Assembly: GCA_001782675.1 (NCBI GenBank)
Contig: MFPJ01000022.1
Location: 1-59,979 of the forward strand
Direction: 5' to 3'
Length of the DNA: 59,979 bases
DNA from: Candidatus Levybacteria bacterium RIFCSPLOWO2_12_FULL_39_17
GTDB lineage: Bacteria; Patescibacteriota; Microgenomatia; Levybacterales; GWA1-39-11
The notes beneath the pieces were generated by a model. It had not been told where the DNA came from, made no database searches, and was given only the letters and a program-made list of their open reading frames with translations. Both the position numbers and the translations under genes were made by a program. Position 1 is the stretch's first letter, and each line of letters starts with the position of its first letter. Shown here one piece after another: positions 37,803-45,353 of the stretch.

Positions 37803-38815
37803 ATCAGTTACCTAAAATTACAATTATCATTGTTACTTTGAATAATGAAAGGACGATAGGAGAATGTGTGCGCACGATTATGACCCAAGATTATCCAAAA
37901 CATCTCATAGAATATATTAATGTGGATGGCGGATCGACAGATGCTACAAAAACGATACTCAAAAAAAACAAGTTTCGCATAATAGACTCTCCTATTAAAA
38001 AAAATGCTGAAGCACAAAGGGCCATCGGTTTAAAACATGCAAAGAACAATTTAATTGTTTCATTAGATGCAGATAACTACCTTCCTCATAAAAAGTGGAT
38101 AACACAAATGGTAAGACCATTTTTAGAAAATAAAGATATTGTTCACGCTGGGACATTGCACTTTACGCATAAAAAAAACGACCCAGCCCTTAACAGATAT
38201 GTTGCATTATTTGGCGTTGTTGATCCCACTGTCTATTACATTGGTAGGCCAGATAGAGTGCCATGGTTTAAGAATAAATGGAGTGGTGGTGATATTTTAA
38301 GAGAAACGCCAGAATATTACATAGTACGATTTAACCGTGATTCATTGCCAACAGTTGGTTGTAATGGTGTTGTATATAGGAGAGATATATTGTTAAAAAA
38401 TGCACAAAGCGATCCCTCAAGATTTATACATATCGACGTTTTTGCTGATTTATTTGAAAAAGGACACGATAAATATGCAGTTGTTAAAAACGATGTAATA
38501 CATGATACCGCTATTAACTTAACAACTCTTATGAAAAAAAGAATAGCCTTTCTTTATGCATACTACTATTTGAATTCAAATAAAAATGTATTAAAAAGGA
38601 GATATTTAATATATAATCCCAAGAAACCACAAGATGTCTTTAGGCTTTTTGTATTTATTTTTTATACGATTACTTTTGTAAAACCATTAATCGACAGCAT
38701 TAGAGGATATTTCATAGTAAGAGATGTAGCGTGGTTTCTTCATCCCATTATGTGCTGGGTATATCTTTATGCTTACAGTTTGGCAACAATTAAGAAATTC
38801 TTAGGAGACAGATGA
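37799..38815 (+). CDS. GT2 glycosyltransferase
   Basis: A 338-residue GT-A enzyme. KITIIIVTLNNERTIGECVRTI, YINVDGGSTDATKTI and the DXD in IVSLDADNYLPH are clear. SPIKKNAEAQRAIGLKHAKNN is the usual donor-proximal helix. The second half (YYIVRFNRDSLPTVGCNGVVY) carries the GCNG acceptor-loop pattern, and the C-terminus has hydrophobic segments that may anchor it. It is flanked by coupled genes on both sides (4 nt overlaps). Confidence 0.85.
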   Translation: MNQLPKITIIIVTLNNERTIGECVRTIMTQDYPKHLIEYINVDGGSTDATKTILKKNKFRIIDSPIKKNAEAQRAIGLKHAKNNLIVSLDADNYLPHKKWITQMVRPFLENKDIVHAGTLHFTHKKNDPALNRYVALFGVVDPTVYYIGRPDRVPWFKNKWSGGDILRETPEYYIVRFNRDSLPTVGCNGVVYRRDILLKNAQSDPSRFIHIDVFADLFEKGHDKYAVVKNDVIHDTAINLTTLMKKRIAFLYAYYYLNSNKNVLKRRYLIYNPKKPQDVFRLFVFIFYTITFVKPLIDSIRGYFIVRDVAWFLHPIMCWVYLYAYSLATIKKFLGDR

Positions 38816-39720
38816 AGAATAAAATATTGCTTACAGGTGCGACAAGTTTTTTAGGAAAAAATCTCTTGGTGAAATTAAAAGAAAGAGATGAGGATATTTT
38901 TGCAACTGCTAGCCATGAAAATATAGAACAAAACATTATAAAAATGGATTTGGTGAGGTTAGATGAAACTAAAAAAGTGGTTAAACTCATAAATCCATCT
39001 ATTGTCTATCATTTAGCGGCACTAGTTAACTTATCTCGTGAATATAATGTTGCCCAACAGTGCATAGAAATAAACATTAAGGGTACGTTCAACCTTCTAG
39101 AGTCTTTTCGAATCACAAAGCCTAGGATAATGGTTTTTATTAGCACAGAAGAAGTTTATGGTAGCGGGCCAATCCCTTATATAGAAGAACAACCCCTCGA
39201 TCCTCCTTCGGGATATGCAATATCGAAAATTGCAGGAGAAAGTCTTTGTCGCATATATGCCCGTGAGTTAGGGTTTAAACTGATAATACTTAGAGTAGGG
39301 ACTATGTACGGTCCTGGCGATAAGGACAACAGATTAATTCCTCAGCTCATTATGAAAGCACTAAAAAATGAAGAAATTCCAGTCAATACAGGAATGAAAA
39401 AAAGAGATTACGTATTTATAGAAGATGTAGTAAAATCTCTTACAAAGGTTTTAGATATTAAAAATATAGATACACATACTGTTATTAATATTGGCGGGGG
39501 TATATCGTATACACTTCTTGATTTGGTAAATATTATTTTGGAAGAAACGCAAAGTAATTCAAATGTCGCTAGAGGAAAAATTCCTGAAAGAATAGGAGAA
39601 GCTAGTGAGTGGTTAATGAATATTGGCAAAGCAAATTACATCTTGGGATGGAAGCCTACAGTATCATTGAAAGTGGGACTAAGAAAGACTATAGATTATT
39701 TTAGAAAAAAAGTTCAATGA
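38812..39720 (+). CDS. Extended SDR, NAD-dependent sugar epimerase/dehydratase-like
   Basis: A 302-residue protein. ILLTGATSFLGKNLLVKLKE is the NAD motif, with Ser in place of the second Gly of TGxxGxxG. VFISTEEVYGSGPIPY gives the catalytic Ser/Thr with an acidic EE pair resembling the STDEVYG of dehydratases, and GYAISKIAGES the YxxxK pair. RVGTMYGPGDKDNR and KKRDYVFIEDVV bind the sugar nucleotide. It could be an epimerase, a 4-reductase or an NDP-hexose dehydratase. A good ribosome-binding site (AGGAG) lies just upstream. Confidence 0.82.
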   Translation: MKNKILLTGATSFLGKNLLVKLKERDEDIFATASHENIEQNIIKMDLVRLDETKKVVKLINPSIVYHLAALVNLSREYNVAQQCIEINIKGTFNLLESFRITKPRIMVFISTEEVYGSGPIPYIEEQPLDPPSGYAISKIAGESLCRIYARELGFKLIILRVGTMYGPGDKDNRLIPQLIMKALKNEEIPVNTGMKKRDYVFIEDVVKSLTKVLDIKNIDTHTVINIGGGISYTLLDLVNIILEETQSNSNVARGKIPERIGEASEWLMNIGKANYILGWKPTVSLKVGLRKTIDYFRKKVQ

Positions 39721-39827: not shown

Positions 39828-41039
39828 ATGAAAAAAAGAAAAGAACAGATATATTTTGCAAAAACAATTTACGATGATAAGGAAATAAAGGCTGTCGTTG
39901 ATTGTTTAAAAGCAGGTTGGCTTGGGACTGGAAAAATAACGGAAAAATTTGAAAAGCGCTTCGCAAAATACATAGGAATGCCACATGCAAGTTTGGTTAA
40001 TTCGGGTTCGTCAGCTAACCTTTTGGCGGTAAGAGGTTTAAACCTTCCCGAGGGCAGCAAAGTCCTAACTTGCGCGGCAGGATTTCCTTCTACACTTTCT
40101 CCTATTTGGCACTCCCATCTTCAAATCGTTGCGGTGGACTTAGATCTCAAAAGCCTTAATATTAACCTTGACCAGGTCGAAAAAGCATTAAAAAAGCATG
40201 GAGACATTAGGGCAATAATTTTTGCACACACCCTTGGCAACCCGGTTGACATGAAAAGGATAATGCACCTAGCTTCCAAATATAAGCTTCAGGTAATAGA
40301 GGACAATTGCGATGCTTTAGGTAGCGAAGTGTATGGCAAAAAGACAGGTTCTTTCGGAAATTTTTCCACCTGTTCTTTTTATGCAAGCCATCACATAACC
40401 CTCGCTGGAGCTGGAGGAATTGTACTTTCAAAAACAAAAGAATCAGCTTTCCGAATTAAAAGCTTAAAGGAATGGGGGAAAGAACAAGTTACACTAGACT
40501 ACGATAGGGATCATGGTGTCCACTTTGACAGTAGGAGTAATGGTGTTTCATATGATCATAGATATTCATACCCCGAAGTAGGATATAACTTTAAAGTCCC
40601 GGAGATAATGGCGGCCTTTGGCTTGGTTCAAATGGATAGACTTGAAGGAATCCATAGAGCTAGAAGAAAAAATTTTAAATACCTAGAGTCAAAACTAAAG
40701 AAATTCGGAGATTATTTTCATTTTATCGAAGCCCTGCTGGAAGCAAATCCATCGTGGTTTAATTTTCCGGTCACACTAAAAGATGGTGTTCCATTTACAA
40801 GGCAGGAGATAGTGGAATTTCTAGAGAATAATAAAATAAGGACCCGTTTGTTTTTTGCTGGTAATATCCTTCGCCAGAAAGGATTCAAATCCATTCCAGT
40901 GGATGTGGTGGATAAGTTGGATGTGGCAGACAAGGTACATAGAGATTCTTTTTTGCTTGGGGTGCATCCAACGCAGACTCGCGAAATGCTCGACTACATG
41001 GTAGATGCTATCGAGGAATTTGTTAATACTCGTAGGTAG
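39828..41039 (+). CDS. RfbH-like PLP-dependent sugar 3-dehydratase, lacking Fe-S cysteines
   Basis: A 403-residue member of the DegT/DnrJ/EryC1/StrS fold. WLGTGKITEKFEKRFAKYIG, VNSGSSANLLAV, FAHTLGNPVDM and EDNCDALGSEVYGKKTG match RfbH (CDP-6-deoxy-xylo-hexulose 3-dehydrase, E1). The catalytic Lys of aminotransferases is replaced by His (SFYASHHIT, His188/189), the mark of 3-dehydratases. However the Cys-rich block that binds the [2Fe-2S] cluster in RfbH (CWC...NTCG) is absent here (KEQVTLDYDRDHGVHFDS), as in the cluster-free ColD type. Predicted to remove the 3-hydroxyl of an NDP-4-keto-6-deoxyhexose. First gene of a sugar cassette. Confidence 0.85.
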   Translation: MKKRKEQIYFAKTIYDDKEIKAVVDCLKAGWLGTGKITEKFEKRFAKYIGMPHASLVNSGSSANLLAVRGLNLPEGSKVLTCAAGFPSTLSPIWHSHLQIVAVDLDLKSLNINLDQVEKALKKHGDIRAIIFAHTLGNPVDMKRIMHLASKYKLQVIEDNCDALGSEVYGKKTGSFGNFSTCSFYASHHITLAGAGGIVLSKTKESAFRIKSLKEWGKEQVTLDYDRDHGVHFDSRSNGVSYDHRYSYPEVGYNFKVPEIMAAFGLVQMDRLEGIHRARRKNFKYLESKLKKFGDYFHFIEALLEANPSWFNFPVTLKDGVPFTRQEIVEFLENNKIRTRLFFAGNILRQKGFKSIPVDVVDKLDVADKVHRDSFLLGVHPTQTREMLDYMVDAIEEFVNTRR

Positions 41040-41262: not shown

Positions 41263-42051
41263 ATTCTGAATAAGAAAGATATTCCTGTTGTTATCTTCTG
41301 CGGCGGTCAAGGAGCACGAATGAAGGAGGAAACAGAATTTCGTCCCAAGCCCATGGTGACTGTGGGTGGAAAACCTATCCTGTGGCACATAATGAAAATA
41401 TATGCGTACTACGGTTTTAATGAATTCATTATCGCATTAGGATATAAGGGTGATTACATAAAGGATTACTTTCTTAACGAAGAATATTTTATTCATGACC
41501 TTACAATAGACACTTACACTGGGAAACGAACAATTCATCGTGAGAAAAAAAAGAGACACGACAAATTTAAAATTACATTCGTTGATACGGGGATCGAGAC
41601 ATTAACTGCTGAAAGACTTTTAAGAGTCAAGCCATACATAAATTCCGATATCTTTATGGCGACGTATGGAGATGGTGTAGGTAATATTCCTATTAATGAT
41701 TTAATCGAATTTCACAAAAAGAAGAGGGTCATAGGTACAATTACTGGGGTACATCCAAAATCCAAATGGGGGCTAGTTATATCCGATAAGAACAATATCG
41801 TCGAACGTTTTGAGCAGAAGCCTCAACTAAATCAGTATGTTAATGGAGGATTTATGGTTTTTGATAAAAAAGTATTTGATTATGTTAAGCCAAAAGAAAT
41901 GATTGAAGTTTCTCTAAATAGATTAGTAGAGGAAAGAAAACTTGCTGTTTATATACATGACGGATATTGGTCGGCTATGGATACTTATCAGGACATGGAG
42001 GAAATGAATAAGCAATGGAGAAAAGATCCAAAGTGGAAAATATGGAGATAA
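41263..42051 (+). CDS. RfbF-like glucose-1-phosphate cytidylyltransferase, non-canonical start
   Basis: A nucleotidyltransferase of about 262 residues that makes CDP-glucose (or a related NDP-sugar). The track start at 41320 loses the essential N-terminus: upstream in frame is DIPVVIFCGGQGARMKEETE, the nucleotide-binding GGxGxRxxEET motif. KPMVTVGGKPILWHIMKIYA, GYKGDYIKDYFLNEEYF, YGDGVGNI and VNGGFMVFDKKV continue the RfbF signature. Between the in-frame stop at 41251 and the motif there is no ATG, GTG or TTG; the candidates are ATT at 41263 or CTG at 41266, placed 6 and 9 nt after a -10 box. The start used here is therefore a guess. Confidence 0.8.
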   Translation: MLNKKDIPVVIFCGGQGARMKEETEFRPKPMVTVGGKPILWHIMKIYAYYGFNEFIIALGYKGDYIKDYFLNEEYFIHDLTIDTYTGKRTIHREKKKRHDKFKITFVDTGIETLTAERLLRVKPYINSDIFMATYGDGVGNIPINDLIEFHKKKRVIGTITGVHPKSKWGLVISDKNNIVERFEQKPQLNQYVNGGFMVFDKKVFDYVKPKEMIEVSLNRLVEERKLAVYIHDGYWSAMDTYQDMEEMNKQWRKDPKWKIWR

Positions 42052-42055
42052 CGTT

Positions 42056-43084
42056 GTGAAGAAAGTAATAGTAACAGGAGATAGAGGCTATATAGGGTCA
42101 GTTCTAGTCCCAAAACTATTGACTAAAGGCTATAAGGTAGTAGGGTTTGATACCGGATTTTTTGATAAATGTATTATCAAAGGAAAAAAGGATCCGGTTT
42201 ACAAAAAAATAAAAAAAGATATTAGGAATATTACTGAAAAAGACCTTAAAGGAGTTGATGCAATAATTCATCTTAGTGCGCTTTCAAATGACCCAATGGG
42301 CGAGATTGACCCGAGTCTTACCGAAGAAATAAATTATAAGTCATCTATAAGGCTCGCCAAATTAGCTAAAGAATCAGGGGTGAAAAAATTCTTGTTTTCA
42401 TCATCATGCAGTATATATGGTATTGCAAAAAGCGGAATTGTTGATGAAAAGTCGACCGTGAATCCGCTGACTGCATACGCAAAGTCAAAAATTAAGGCAG
42501 AAAAAGCGCTAAAAAAACTGGCTGGCAAAAACTTTTTTATTGGGCTTATGAGAAATTCTACTGTTTACGGATTTTCCCCAAGATTTAGGAATGATTTAGT
42601 TGTTAATAACTTAGTAACAACTGCTCTTGCATATAAGCAAATAAGGATTTTAAGCGATGGAACTCCATGGAGGCCATTAATTGATGTAAGAGACTTAAGT
42701 GATATATTTATTAAATTTTTAGAGACAGGCACGCAGAACTTAAATGGGAAGGTGATAAACATCGGATTCGAAGAAAATAATTTTCAGGTCAAAGATTTAG
42801 TAGCCGTAATTAAAAAGCAATTGCCTAATTGTAAAGTTGTTTATACCGGAGAACACGGAAAAGACTCAAGAAGTTACCGTGTTGACTTTGCCTTATTTAA
42901 GAAACTCTTTCCAAATGTAAAACAAAAGTGGACATTAACAAAATCCGTAAAAGACATGATTAAAAATCTTAAAAAATCGGACTTCAATAGAACAACTTTT
43001 GAATCGGGAAAATATACAAGACTGGCTGTTCTAAAAAATTTACTGGAGGAGAATAAAGTAAATAAAGATTTATACTTAAATTAA
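42056..43084 (+). CDS. Extended SDR, NDP-sugar epimerase/dehydrogenase of the cassette
   Basis: A 342-residue protein; start GTG with GGAG eight bases upstream. KKVIVTGDRGYIGSVLVPKL binds NAD, IHLSALSNDPMGEIDPSLTE is the loop after the third strand, FSSSCSIYGIAKSGIV gives the catalytic Ser and LTAYAKSKIKAEK the YxxxK pair. RNSTVYGFSPRFRNDLVVN and SDGTPWRPLIDVRDL are typical of SDRs found beside RfbF-like and RmlC-like genes. The reaction (epimerisation, 4,6-dehydration or 4-reduction) cannot be settled; it lacks the GHTGFKGSWL N-terminus of classical CDP-glucose 4,6-dehydratase RfbG. Confidence 0.82.
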   Translation: MKKVIVTGDRGYIGSVLVPKLLTKGYKVVGFDTGFFDKCIIKGKKDPVYKKIKKDIRNITEKDLKGVDAIIHLSALSNDPMGEIDPSLTEEINYKSSIRLAKLAKESGVKKFLFSSSCSIYGIAKSGIVDEKSTVNPLTAYAKSKIKAEKALKKLAGKNFFIGLMRNSTVYGFSPRFRNDLVVNNLVTTALAYKQIRILSDGTPWRPLIDVRDLSDIFIKFLETGTQNLNGKVINIGFEENNFQVKDLVAVIKKQLPNCKVVYTGEHGKDSRSYRVDFALFKKLFPNVKQKWTLTKSVKDMIKNLKKSDFNRTTFESGKYTRLAVLKNLLEENKVNKDLYLN

Positions 43085-43621
43085 ATGAAATTTACAAAAA
43101 CAAAGATCGAAGGGGTTTATGTTATAGACTTGGAACCTAGGGGGGATGCAAGGGGTTATTTTACAAGAGTTTTTTGCAAGGATGAGTTGAGAAAGGTAGG
43201 AATAAAATATGAAATAGCGCAGGTAAACAGGTCATTTACTGTCGAAAAAGGAACAATTCGAGGATTGCATTACCAAAGAAGCCCGGAACAGGAAGATAAA
43301 ATTATCCAGTGCGTGAAGGGGTCTATATTTGATGTTGCTCTTGATTTAAGAAAAAAATCTAAAACTTATGGAAAATGGTTCGGTTTGGAATTGTCGGAGA
43401 AAAATAAAAGAATGCTATTGATCCCAAAAGGATGCGCGCATGCATTCCAAACACTTGTGAAGAACGTAGCGGTGGAATACTTTGTGTCAGAATATTATTC
43501 TCCTAATTATGAATCGGGAATAAGATGGGATGATCCCGCATTTAAAGTGGCTTGGCCAATAAAAAAACCTAAGCTTTCAGACAAAGACGCAAACTGGCCC
43601 CTTGTCACAAAGACAAAATGA
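43085..43621 (+). CDS. RmlC-like dTDP-4-dehydrorhamnose 3,5-epimerase family protein
   Basis: A 178-residue cupin, the usual RmlC length. PRGDARGYFTRVFCKDELRK, VNRSFTVEKGTIRGLHYQ (catalytic His), IQCVKGSIFDVALDLRKKS, LIPKGCAHAFQTL, and EYYSPNYESGIRWDDP (catalytic Tyr and Asp) are all present. It should epimerise C3 and/or C5 of an NDP-4-keto-6-deoxyhexose. The carrier nucleotide may be CDP, given the RfbF-like neighbour, or dTDP. It starts right after the SDR stop and overlaps the next gene by 4 nt. Confidence 0.9.
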   Translation: MKFTKTKIEGVYVIDLEPRGDARGYFTRVFCKDELRKVGIKYEIAQVNRSFTVEKGTIRGLHYQRSPEQEDKIIQCVKGSIFDVALDLRKKSKTYGKWFGLELSEKNKRMLLIPKGCAHAFQTLVKNVAVEYFVSEYYSPNYESGIRWDDPAFKVAWPIKKPKLSDKDANWPLVTKTK

Positions 43622-44490
43622 AAATATTACTTATAGGGAAAAATGGCCAAATAGGCAGAGAGATTTTAAAGCTTGGCAGCAAAAAGAATACAGTCGTAGC
43701 ATTGTCAAAAAAAGAACTTGACATTACAAACTGGAAATCTACGCGGGAAGTAATAACCGAAGTTGGTCCGGAAGTTGTTATTAATGGGTCAGGTTATCAT
43801 GTCGTATCTGATTGCGAGAATTTTCCCGATAAAGCTTTTGAATTAAATACTTTTGCTTTAAAAAATCTCTCCGACATATGCGCTGAGAGAAAAATTACAG
43901 TAGTTAACTTCAGCACCGATAAAGTTTTTGATGGGAAGAAAAATAAACCATATAAAGAAAAAGATGAGGCAAATCCTCTACAGGTTTATGGAATGTCCAA
44001 GCTTGCAGGTGAAATAGTTGCCCATAGCTACTGCGATAAGGCCATTACTATTAGAACATGTGGGGTATACGGAGGTCTTGAGGGAAGTCGTGCCAAAAAA
44101 GGAAATTTTGTCCTTATGATAATAAACGAATCAAAAAACAAAAAGAGCCTGGAAATATCCTCTGAACAATTCGCAAGTTTTATAAATGCTGAAGATTTGG
44201 CAAGAATAACGTTAGAGCTTCTATCAAAAAAAGTAGATAGTGGTATTTACCATGTTGTAAATGAGGGGTACGCTTCATGGGCGGAATTCGGGGATACTAT
44301 AACCAAGATCGCAAATCTGCCCTTGACTGTAGTGCCCAAAGACAGATTGGGATCTTTTAGCAGCGTCAAAATCCCGCTTTTTGCCGGACTGGACGTTTCG
44401 AAAATAAAATCGATCGGAATAAAAGTTAAACCTTGGCAAGACGGATTGAAAGAATACATAAGCTTTTTAAGAAGTCAAAACGTATTATGA
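43618..44490 (+). CDS. RmlD-like dTDP-4-dehydrorhamnose reductase family protein, copy 1
   Basis: A 290-residue SDR. MKILLIGKNGQIGREILKLG is the RmlD-type GxxGQxG NADP-binding motif. NFSTDKVFDGKK carries the Thr but has Lys where RmlD usually has Tyr (STDYVF). LQVYGMSKLAGEIVA keeps the YxxxK pair (Tyr124, Lys128). RTCGVYGGLEGSRAKKGNFV matches the family's R-x-x-x-VYG segment. Probably reduces C4 of the sugar made by the preceding enzymes. Overlaps its paralogue by 4 nt. Confidence 0.88.
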   Translation: MKILLIGKNGQIGREILKLGSKKNTVVALSKKELDITNWKSTREVITEVGPEVVINGSGYHVVSDCENFPDKAFELNTFALKNLSDICAERKITVVNFSTDKVFDGKKNKPYKEKDEANPLQVYGMSKLAGEIVAHSYCDKAITIRTCGVYGGLEGSRAKKGNFVLMIINESKNKKSLEISSEQFASFINAEDLARITLELLSKKVDSGIYHVVNEGYASWAEFGDTITKIANLPLTVVPKDRLGSFSSVKIPLFAGLDVSKIKSIGIKVKPWQDGLKEYISFLRSQNVL

Positions 44491-45353
44491 AAATTTTTGT
44501 TATTGGTAAAAAGGGGCAATTGGGACAGGAAATAGAAAGGCGGTGCGGAGGAGCTCCCTATAAAGTTTTTTCTTATGGTAGGGAAGATCTCGACATAACG
44601 GATCATAAAAAGGTCTCGGAAGTTGTAGGAAAGGTTGGCCCCGATATTGTGGTCAACTGTACGGCCTTGCATGCAAGTCTTGAAAGCGAAAAAAAACCTG
44701 GGGGAATGTTTGAGGTAAACGCTTTTGCAGTCAAAAATTTGGCACTTGTGTGTGCGAAAAATAAAATACCTCTTGTCACTTACAGCACCGACTATGTTTT
44801 CAGTGGAATGAAAGGTGTTCCATACAAAGAAAGTGACCATCCGACTCCGGTCCAAATGTTCGGGATCTCAAAGTATATGGGGGAGTTAATGGCTATTAAT
44901 TACTGTCCGGACAGTATTGTAATAAGGACATCGGGGCTGTACGGAGGGTTGAGGGGAAGCAGGTCTAAGGGTAATTTTGTCTTAAATCTCATACAGGAAT
45001 CAAAGACTAAAAAGACAATTGAAGTTTCATCAGACCAAATATTCAGCCCTACATATGTAGAGGATTTAGTTGCTGCATCTTTTGAACTCTTAAAAAAGAA
45101 AGCAAGACCCGGAATTCACCATATAGCAAATGGCGGCTACTGTTCTTGGGCGGATTTTTCTAAAGAAATTGTAAAAATAATGGGTCTTAAAACAACAATT
45201 GCACCGGTTAATAGAAAAGGGGTATGGGGTGGAATAAAAAGGCCGTTATTTGCCGCTTTAGATAATTCAAAAGTCAAAAAAATGGGAATAGAAATCCCCA
45301 GCTGGCAGAAGGGTCTGGAAAAATACGCGCATTTTTTAGAAAATAACATATGA
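44487..45353 (+). CDS. RmlD-like reductase family protein, copy 2, catalytic Tyr replaced
   Basis: A 288-residue tandem paralogue of the previous protein; start at MKIFVIGKKGQLGQEIERRC (44487), not the track start at 44433. TYSTDYVFSGMKG is canonical, but the YxxxK motif reads PVQMFGISKYMGE, with Phe125 in place of Tyr and Lys129 kept. The remainder (RTSGLYGGLRGSRSKGNFV, SSDQIFSPTYVEDL) is well conserved. It may bind substrate without reducing it, act as a subunit with copy 1, or use another residue. Overlaps the GT2 gene by 4 nt. Confidence 0.88.
   Translation: MKIFVIGKKGQLGQEIERRCGGAPYKVFSYGREDLDITDHKKVSEVVGKVGPDIVVNCTALHASLESEKKPGGMFEVNAFAVKNLALVCAKNKIPLVTYSTDYVFSGMKGVPYKESDHPTPVQMFGISKYMGELMAINYCPDSIVIRTSGLYGGLRGSRSKGNFVLNLIQESKTKKTIEVSSDQIFSPTYVEDLVAASFELLKKKARPGIHHIANGGYCSWADFSKEIVKIMGLKTTIAPVNRKGVWGGIKRPLFAALDNSKVKKMGIEIPSWQKGLEKYAHFLENNI

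Follow-up and report, generated by a model that had tools for sequence, protein, structure and literature searches.

A putative cluster-free sugar 3-dehydratase of the RfbH lineage in a small Levybacteria genome

E1 and ColD reach the same sugar deoxygenation through distinct chemistries, which poses the question of how one type turned into the other. That question bears on a locus in a 59,979-nucleotide stretch of DNA, the window of this analysis, from Candidatus Levybacteria bacterium RIFCSPLOWO2_12_FULL_39_17 (contig MFPJ01000022.1), where a protein of the RfbH/E1 type, P0001, appears to have no site for the iron-sulfur cluster. By which of the two routes, if either, would such a protein work? 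E1, SpnQ and ColD share formation of a Schiff base with PMP, proton removal by the catalytic His and loss of the C3 hydroxyl (PMC8987622). After dehydration, E1 and SpnQ need electrons delivered via the cluster, with a reductase; in ColD, the intermediate is hydrolysed, ammonia is lost and PMP is regenerated from glutamate (PMC8987622).

The protein and its cluster site

The open reading frame of P0001 and its two RfbH-type motifs, FAHTLGNPVDM and SFYASHHIT (which contains H188 and H189), were recovered exactly as first described (Table 1). The protein matches the Pfam family DegT/DnrJ/EryC1/StrS (259.7 bits), and the nearest curated model is RfbH (NF011936), with a score of 397.7 bits, slightly short of the cut-off of 423. 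Among solved structures, Yersinia E1 (3bcx) came far first (2.5e-90, 306 bits, full-length alignment), followed by 9wvy (166 bits) and ColD (143 bits). An AlphaFold2 model built from 56 sequences of the window and the locus has a mean pLDDT of 94.6 (the values for the loop region are given in Table 1); its best fold match is again 3bcx (TM 0.92), and the next are sugar transaminases and ColD (TM about 0.85).

In the alignment, H188 corresponds to H220 of E1 and to the catalytic His of ColD, replacing the aminotransferase Lys that is present at this position in all Lys-type rows (9/9). P0001 matches E1-type proteins at D159, C161, D162, Y185, N254, F311, R340 and N346; of these, D159 and D162 align with E1 D191 and D194, Y185 with Y217, and F311 with F345.

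The four-Cys [2Fe-2S] motif of E1 (C193, C251, C253 and C261) is represented in P0001 by C161 alone, the counterpart of C193. None of C251, C253 and C261 is matched by a Cys, and the corresponding segment reads WGKEQVTLDYDRDHGVHFDSRSNG. The original prediction that Fe-S cysteines are missing is thus correct for the three loop ligands and needs amendment for the fourth, which aligns with a Cys; its wider claim, that the protein is cluster-free, agrees with the alignment with E1, where the absence of the loop ligands suggests that no cluster is bound. A Cys at the C161 position occurs in 255 of the 266 aligned rows, including cluster-free ColD, and is therefore not a mark of a cluster. P0001 has Cys residues at 26, 82, 161 and 182, all four of which are conserved in an orthologue described below, and C182 is common among proteins with the full E1 motif. 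From these comparisons, C161 and C182 look unconnected with a cluster.

The absence of loop Cys is not a matter of chance: each of the 206 E1-type proteins sampled has at least three of them (the class is itself defined by this number), and just one (L061) of the best 80 relatives of P0001 in the genome collection lacks them. The Glu of the GEGG segment that follows the His pair is kept in 206/206 sampled E1-type and 7/7 ColD-type rows; in P0001, the segment is GAGG. With Ala in the place of this Glu, which is invariant in E1-type and ColD-type rows, the active site of P0001 differs from a plain ColD-like one.

G567, a genome from another genus of the same order, encodes an orthologue with 82% identity to P0001, in which the loop reads WGKEQITLGYDKDHGVYFDS. 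Comparison of the two genes gives a pN (proportion of nonsynonymous differences) of 0.106 and a pS (proportion of synonymous differences) of 0.80. Sequencing error and decay are ruled out by the same loop in the orthologue, together with a pN far below pS, and the cluster-free form is, judged from this substitution pattern, under purifying selection.

Table 1. Positions of the genes and of the P0001 segments discussed in the text (coordinates of the window)
Feature	Position	Strand	Details
SDR, epimerase/4,6-dehydratase type	38812..39720	+	TEEVYG...YxxxK site
P0001, putative cluster-free RfbH-type NDP-4-keto-6-deoxyhexose 3-dehydratase	39828..41039	+	403 aa; sequence, alignment, fold matches
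Cys161 codon	40308..40310	+	Aligns with E1 ligand Cys193; sole survivor of four ligands; ColD has Cys too
His188-His189	40389..40394	+	His188 = E1 His220 in alignment, in place of aminotransferase Lys
ITLAGAGG	40395..40418	+	One residue longer than E1 ITMGEGG; without Glu; common to cluster-free clade B
Loop holding CxC...C in E1/RfbH	40482..40550	+	P0001 reads EQVTLDYDRDHGVHFDSRSNGVS, 0 Cys; pLDDT about 68-85
Glucose-1-phosphate cytidylyltransferase homologue (CDP-glucose synthesis)	41266..42051	+	1tzf 1.6e-53; next gene after P0001
SDR, epimerase type (SSSCSIYG)	42056..43084	+	Paired with cytidylyltransferase in G567 too
RmlC-type 3,5-epimerase	43085..43621	+	TIGR01221 183.5 bits, cut-off 155.75
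RmlD-type 4-ketoreductase	43618..44490	+	53% identical counterpart in G567
Second RmlD-type 4-ketoreductase	44487..45353	+	Open from TTG 44433, first ATG 44487

Placement in the RfbH lineage and cluster-free relatives

Phylogenetic placement was examined in a quick tree of 97 rows and in a careful tree of 57 rows from which the loop columns were excluded. P0001 and its orthologue fall on the RfbH side in both, in agreement with the original prediction of a protein distinct from ColD as well as from ordinary Lys aminotransferases. ColD and its relatives branch apart, with support of 99 in the 97-row tree and 100/97 in the careful tree, and the Lys-type aminotransferases are separate from the P0001 pair in the 97-row tree. 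Identity as an ordinary aminotransferase is ruled out by His188 and the tree, and identity as a ColD orthologue by the tree. The exact sister group of the pair differs between the trees, on the RfbH side in each case: in the quick tree, it is clade B (support 44.7), and in the careful tree, phage E1-type proteins (85/92); grouping of P0001 with all E1-type proteins is not rejected (p-AU 0.889).

Clade B comprises 25 cluster-free RfbH homologues (support 99 in the 97-row tree), nearly all from the phylum of the window; in the careful tree, 13 of its proteins form a clade (100/99) that is cluster-free throughout. P0001 had been viewed as an intermediate type, and at the level of residues this description holds, given that it keeps H134, H189 and F311 of the E1 type, which are mostly lost in clade B, and has the one-residue insertion and the change from GEGG to GAGG in common with that clade. 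The implication of a one-off does not hold: clade B, cluster-free as well, is large, and a further loss is nested elsewhere.

The nested loss is found in the window's own family, in genome G694, where the protein L201:1399-2727 (+) scores 534 bits with the RfbH model, above the cut-off, and has no loop Cys. In the careful tree, L201 is nested in the Fe-S group, adjoining Caproicibacter (100/98), and its host genome contains Suf. This Cys-less protein within the Fe-S group indicates that the cluster was probably lost more than once, and the quick tree requires a minimum of four changes between the Fe-S and cluster-free states. Loss of the cluster site in the RfbH lineage was, to judge from these sequences, probably repeated. 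Given that the RfbH model scores Cys-less L201 well over its cut-off, family names are unreliable as a guide to Fe-S dependence.

Additional His-type proteins came to light in the same survey. Seven Cys-less ones (L236, L237, L238, L239, L240, L243 and L244) lie outside both RfbH and ColD and form a branch with the signature STYxAH..TGVGG and an HGRDxIY loop. Among the viral contigs L108-L187, many bear Fe-S-type RfbH genes, and at least seven (L121, L131, L153, L154, L161, L168 and L181) encode, in the same stretch, a second, ColD-side His-His gene (SFYFGHHMST).

Iron-sulfur assembly and gene neighbourhood

The genome that contains the window (G000; 0.91 Mb, 98.9% complete) is small, like those of other sampled members of the phylum. 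No match to SufBD, NifU_N/IscU or Fer2 was detected in this assembly, nor any radical SAM protein above the cut-off, with a single match below it. The expectation of a host poor in Fe-S assembly was thereby borne out better than anticipated. The cell to which G000 belongs may have next to no Fe-S biology.

Among the genomes that were checked for both scaffolds, SufBD or NifU was present in 17 of the 18 with Fe-S-type RfbH compared to 7 of the 22 whose RfbH is of the P0001 type or from clade B (Fisher p 6e-5; only 2-3 independent contrasts on the tree). A comparison corrected for phylogeny had two independent pairs to draw on, too few for any power. These counts fit a one-way dependence, in which Fe-S RfbH needs assembly and the cluster-free form does not. 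The window's order is largely Suf-less regardless, with a match in 21/82 genomes and none in 61/82, and Cys-less L201, whose genome has Suf, runs counter to the link. The absence of Fer2 proteins of the E3 kind is uninformative because nearly all genomes with Fe-S-type RfbH have no Fer2 either (it was found in 4 of 80 RfbH-bearing genomes), and it was accordingly dropped as evidence for cluster-free chemistry. Of the genes examined near P0001, none was recognised as an E3-type reductase; the window's genome encodes two NAD_binding_1 flavoreductase-like proteins.

The genes surrounding P0001 (Table 1) are best explained as a surface-polysaccharide island. The nucleotide-binding GGQGAR motif of the cytidylyltransferase homologue is part of the protein only if translation begins at a non-ATG codon (CTG) near 41266, whereas the start in the list of open reading frames is the ATG at 41320. 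The two RmlD-type reductases are adjacent and diverged, forming a tandem. In G567, the orthologue of P0001 adjoins a homologue of CDP-tyvelose 2-epimerase (348 bits to 9rl0 and 300 to 1orr), and a cytidylyltransferase with 71% identity, the matching SDR, an RmlC-like gene and RmlD are all encoded within about 10 kb. RfbF-type genes occur no more than 7 kb from 9 of the 25 clade B genes. Another member of clade B, L266 (L266:6307-8634 (-), genome G222), is a single frame of 776 aa, in which a cluster-free RfbH-like domain is joined to an RmlB domain identified as dTDP-glucose 4,6-dehydratase (TIGR01181, 390 bits, above the cut-off). The product of dTDP-glucose 4,6-dehydratase is the expected kind of substrate for a 3-dehydratase, and the fusion reads as a two-step deoxysugar enzyme.

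The cytidylyltransferase, the tyvelose-epimerase homologue and the RmlB fusion jointly point to an NDP-4-keto-6-deoxyhexose as the substrate, and, judging from the genes nearby, the nucleotide in the case of P0001 is likely to be CDP. No CDP-glucose 4,6-dehydratase was detected above the cut-off in the window's genome; a TDEVFG-type (RmlB-like) SDR on another contig (L275) is one candidate for the supply of substrate.

Proposed chemistry and comparison with known systems

P0001 does not qualify as a [2Fe-2S] RfbH/E1 on account of its ligands, or as ColD on account of the tree, and hence we regard it as a variant, within the RfbH lineage, that is free of the cluster and probably works as ColD does. 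With moderate confidence, we propose that it is a C3-dehydratase of this lineage that would act on an NDP-4-keto-6-deoxyhexose, most likely a CDP sugar, and finish the reaction in the manner of ColD. For the nucleotide of the substrate, the product, the hydrolytic route and the use of glutamate, we infer the following course. Bound PMP would condense with the C4 ketone of the sugar to a Schiff base, His188 would remove the cofactor proton, and water would leave from C3. The dehydrated intermediate would be left unreduced because neither a [2Fe-2S] cluster nor a reductase would be available, and would instead be hydrolysed, as in ColD, to an enamine sugar and PLP. The enamine would shed ammonia to yield the 4-keto-3,6-dideoxy sugar, and PMP would be regenerated from glutamate. 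Since P0001 lacks the cluster site and its genome shows no means of assembling clusters, an ending as in ColD is the interpretation with the best support. The site is lost in relatives too, mostly in cells unable to make such clusters, and P0001 has thus probably gone over to iron-free chemistry.

P0001 might instead be mainly a sugar 4-aminotransferase that turns over the PMP adduct to a 4-amino sugar, in the way that SpnQ, when its reductase is absent, acts as an aminotransferase with PLP and glutamate (PMC8987622). Sugar transaminases are indeed the fold neighbours of P0001 after E1. However, the Lys that transaminases of this fold use for the internal aldimine is His in P0001 and its orthologue, ColD and E1 gave no transamination under the conditions where SpnQ did (PMC8987622), and the families of the neighbouring RmlC- and RmlD-type genes have 4-keto rather than 4-amino sugars as substrates. 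We consider an aminotransferase unlikely. Retention of E1 Y217 and F345 as Y185 and F311 would also suit an enzyme that is still an E1-type redox 3-dehydratase, receiving electrons from a different source, such as a flavin protein, and operating either without a cluster or with one held by different ligands; the two flavoreductase-like proteins of the genome and the conservation of all four Cys in the orthologue can be read the same way. Against this stand the genome's lack of Fe-S assembly genes and Fer2, the failure to see an E3-kind reductase among the surrounding genes examined, and the fact that C182 is common where the full E1 motif is present and that ColD has C161, so that both residues look unrelated to a cluster; we rate a redox enzyme as slightly less likely still.

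Two features that never vary among Fe-S-type proteins, namely the ligands of the cluster and the Glu of GEGG, are lost in P0001, as might be expected had P0001 lost dehydratase activity and taken on a structural, regulatory or partner role. Such a loss is improbable given the retained catalytic His and cofactor-site residues, the strong excess of synonymous over nonsynonymous differences between the genera and the high confidence of the structural model.

Cluster-free dehydratases as a kind are not new, since ColD is known and the solved structure 9wvy has no loop Cys. In a literature search of open-licence papers, we found no description of a cluster-free branch in the RfbH lineage, of how such a branch recurs in bacteria with small genomes and is linked to the lack of Fe-S assembly, or of the biochemistry of its proteins. 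More tentatively, and as a possibility we hold to be somewhat short of probable, radical, Fe-S-dependent C3-deoxygenation in the RfbH lineage may have been replaced more than once by iron-free hydrolysis in small-genome bacteria without Fe-S assembly, with P0001 keeping most of the E1 active site. If true, this would be a clear case of a pathway kept after the cell had lost the capacity to make its cofactor. Because P0001 combines a mostly E1-like active site with the loss of the cluster site and has both types of relatives nearby, the switch can be tested by swaps of the loop and of the GEGG segment.

Compared with known systems, P0001 is closest to RfbH/E1 of Yersinia (3bcx, 3bb8), the CDP-4-keto-6-deoxy-D-glucose 3-dehydrase, with 38% identity in a nearly full-length fold alignment. 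It has the same fold, His in place of Lys, equivalents of D191, D194, Y217 and F345 and a CDP-sugar gene context; it differs from E1 in having no equivalents of C251, C253 and C261, in the GAGG segment with its extra residue, and in that no E3 reductase with Fer2 was found for it in the genome search. SpnQ, the dTDP-4-keto-2,6-dideoxyglucose 3-dehydrase, would share its chemistry as far as the dehydrated intermediate, but bears a [2Fe-2S] cluster served by ferredoxin or flavodoxin and their reductases (PMC8987622), whereas P0001 is without the four-Cys motif. ColD (2gms, 2r0t, 3b8x), the GDP-4-keto-6-deoxy-D-mannose 3-dehydratase, is likewise cluster-free, with a His-His pair and the PMP/PLP fold; however, it is 26% identical to P0001 in the fold alignment, lies on a separate, well-supported branch and has W, E and H where P0001 and RfbH have F86, D162 and W216. 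The putative NDP-4-keto-6-deoxyglucose 3-dehydratase 9wvy, for which no paper was found under its name among open-licence papers, resembles P0001 in its SFYAGHH motif and in having no loop Cys; it is more distant (166 bits), sits on a long branch and retains GEGG. Members of clade B (for example, L061, L261 and L266) share with P0001 the Cys-less loop, His188, the insertion, the loss of the GEGG Glu and the phylum, but are only about 34-40% identical to it and usually have I, V or N at position 189, L at 311 and a variable residue at 134, positions where P0001 keeps the residues of E1.
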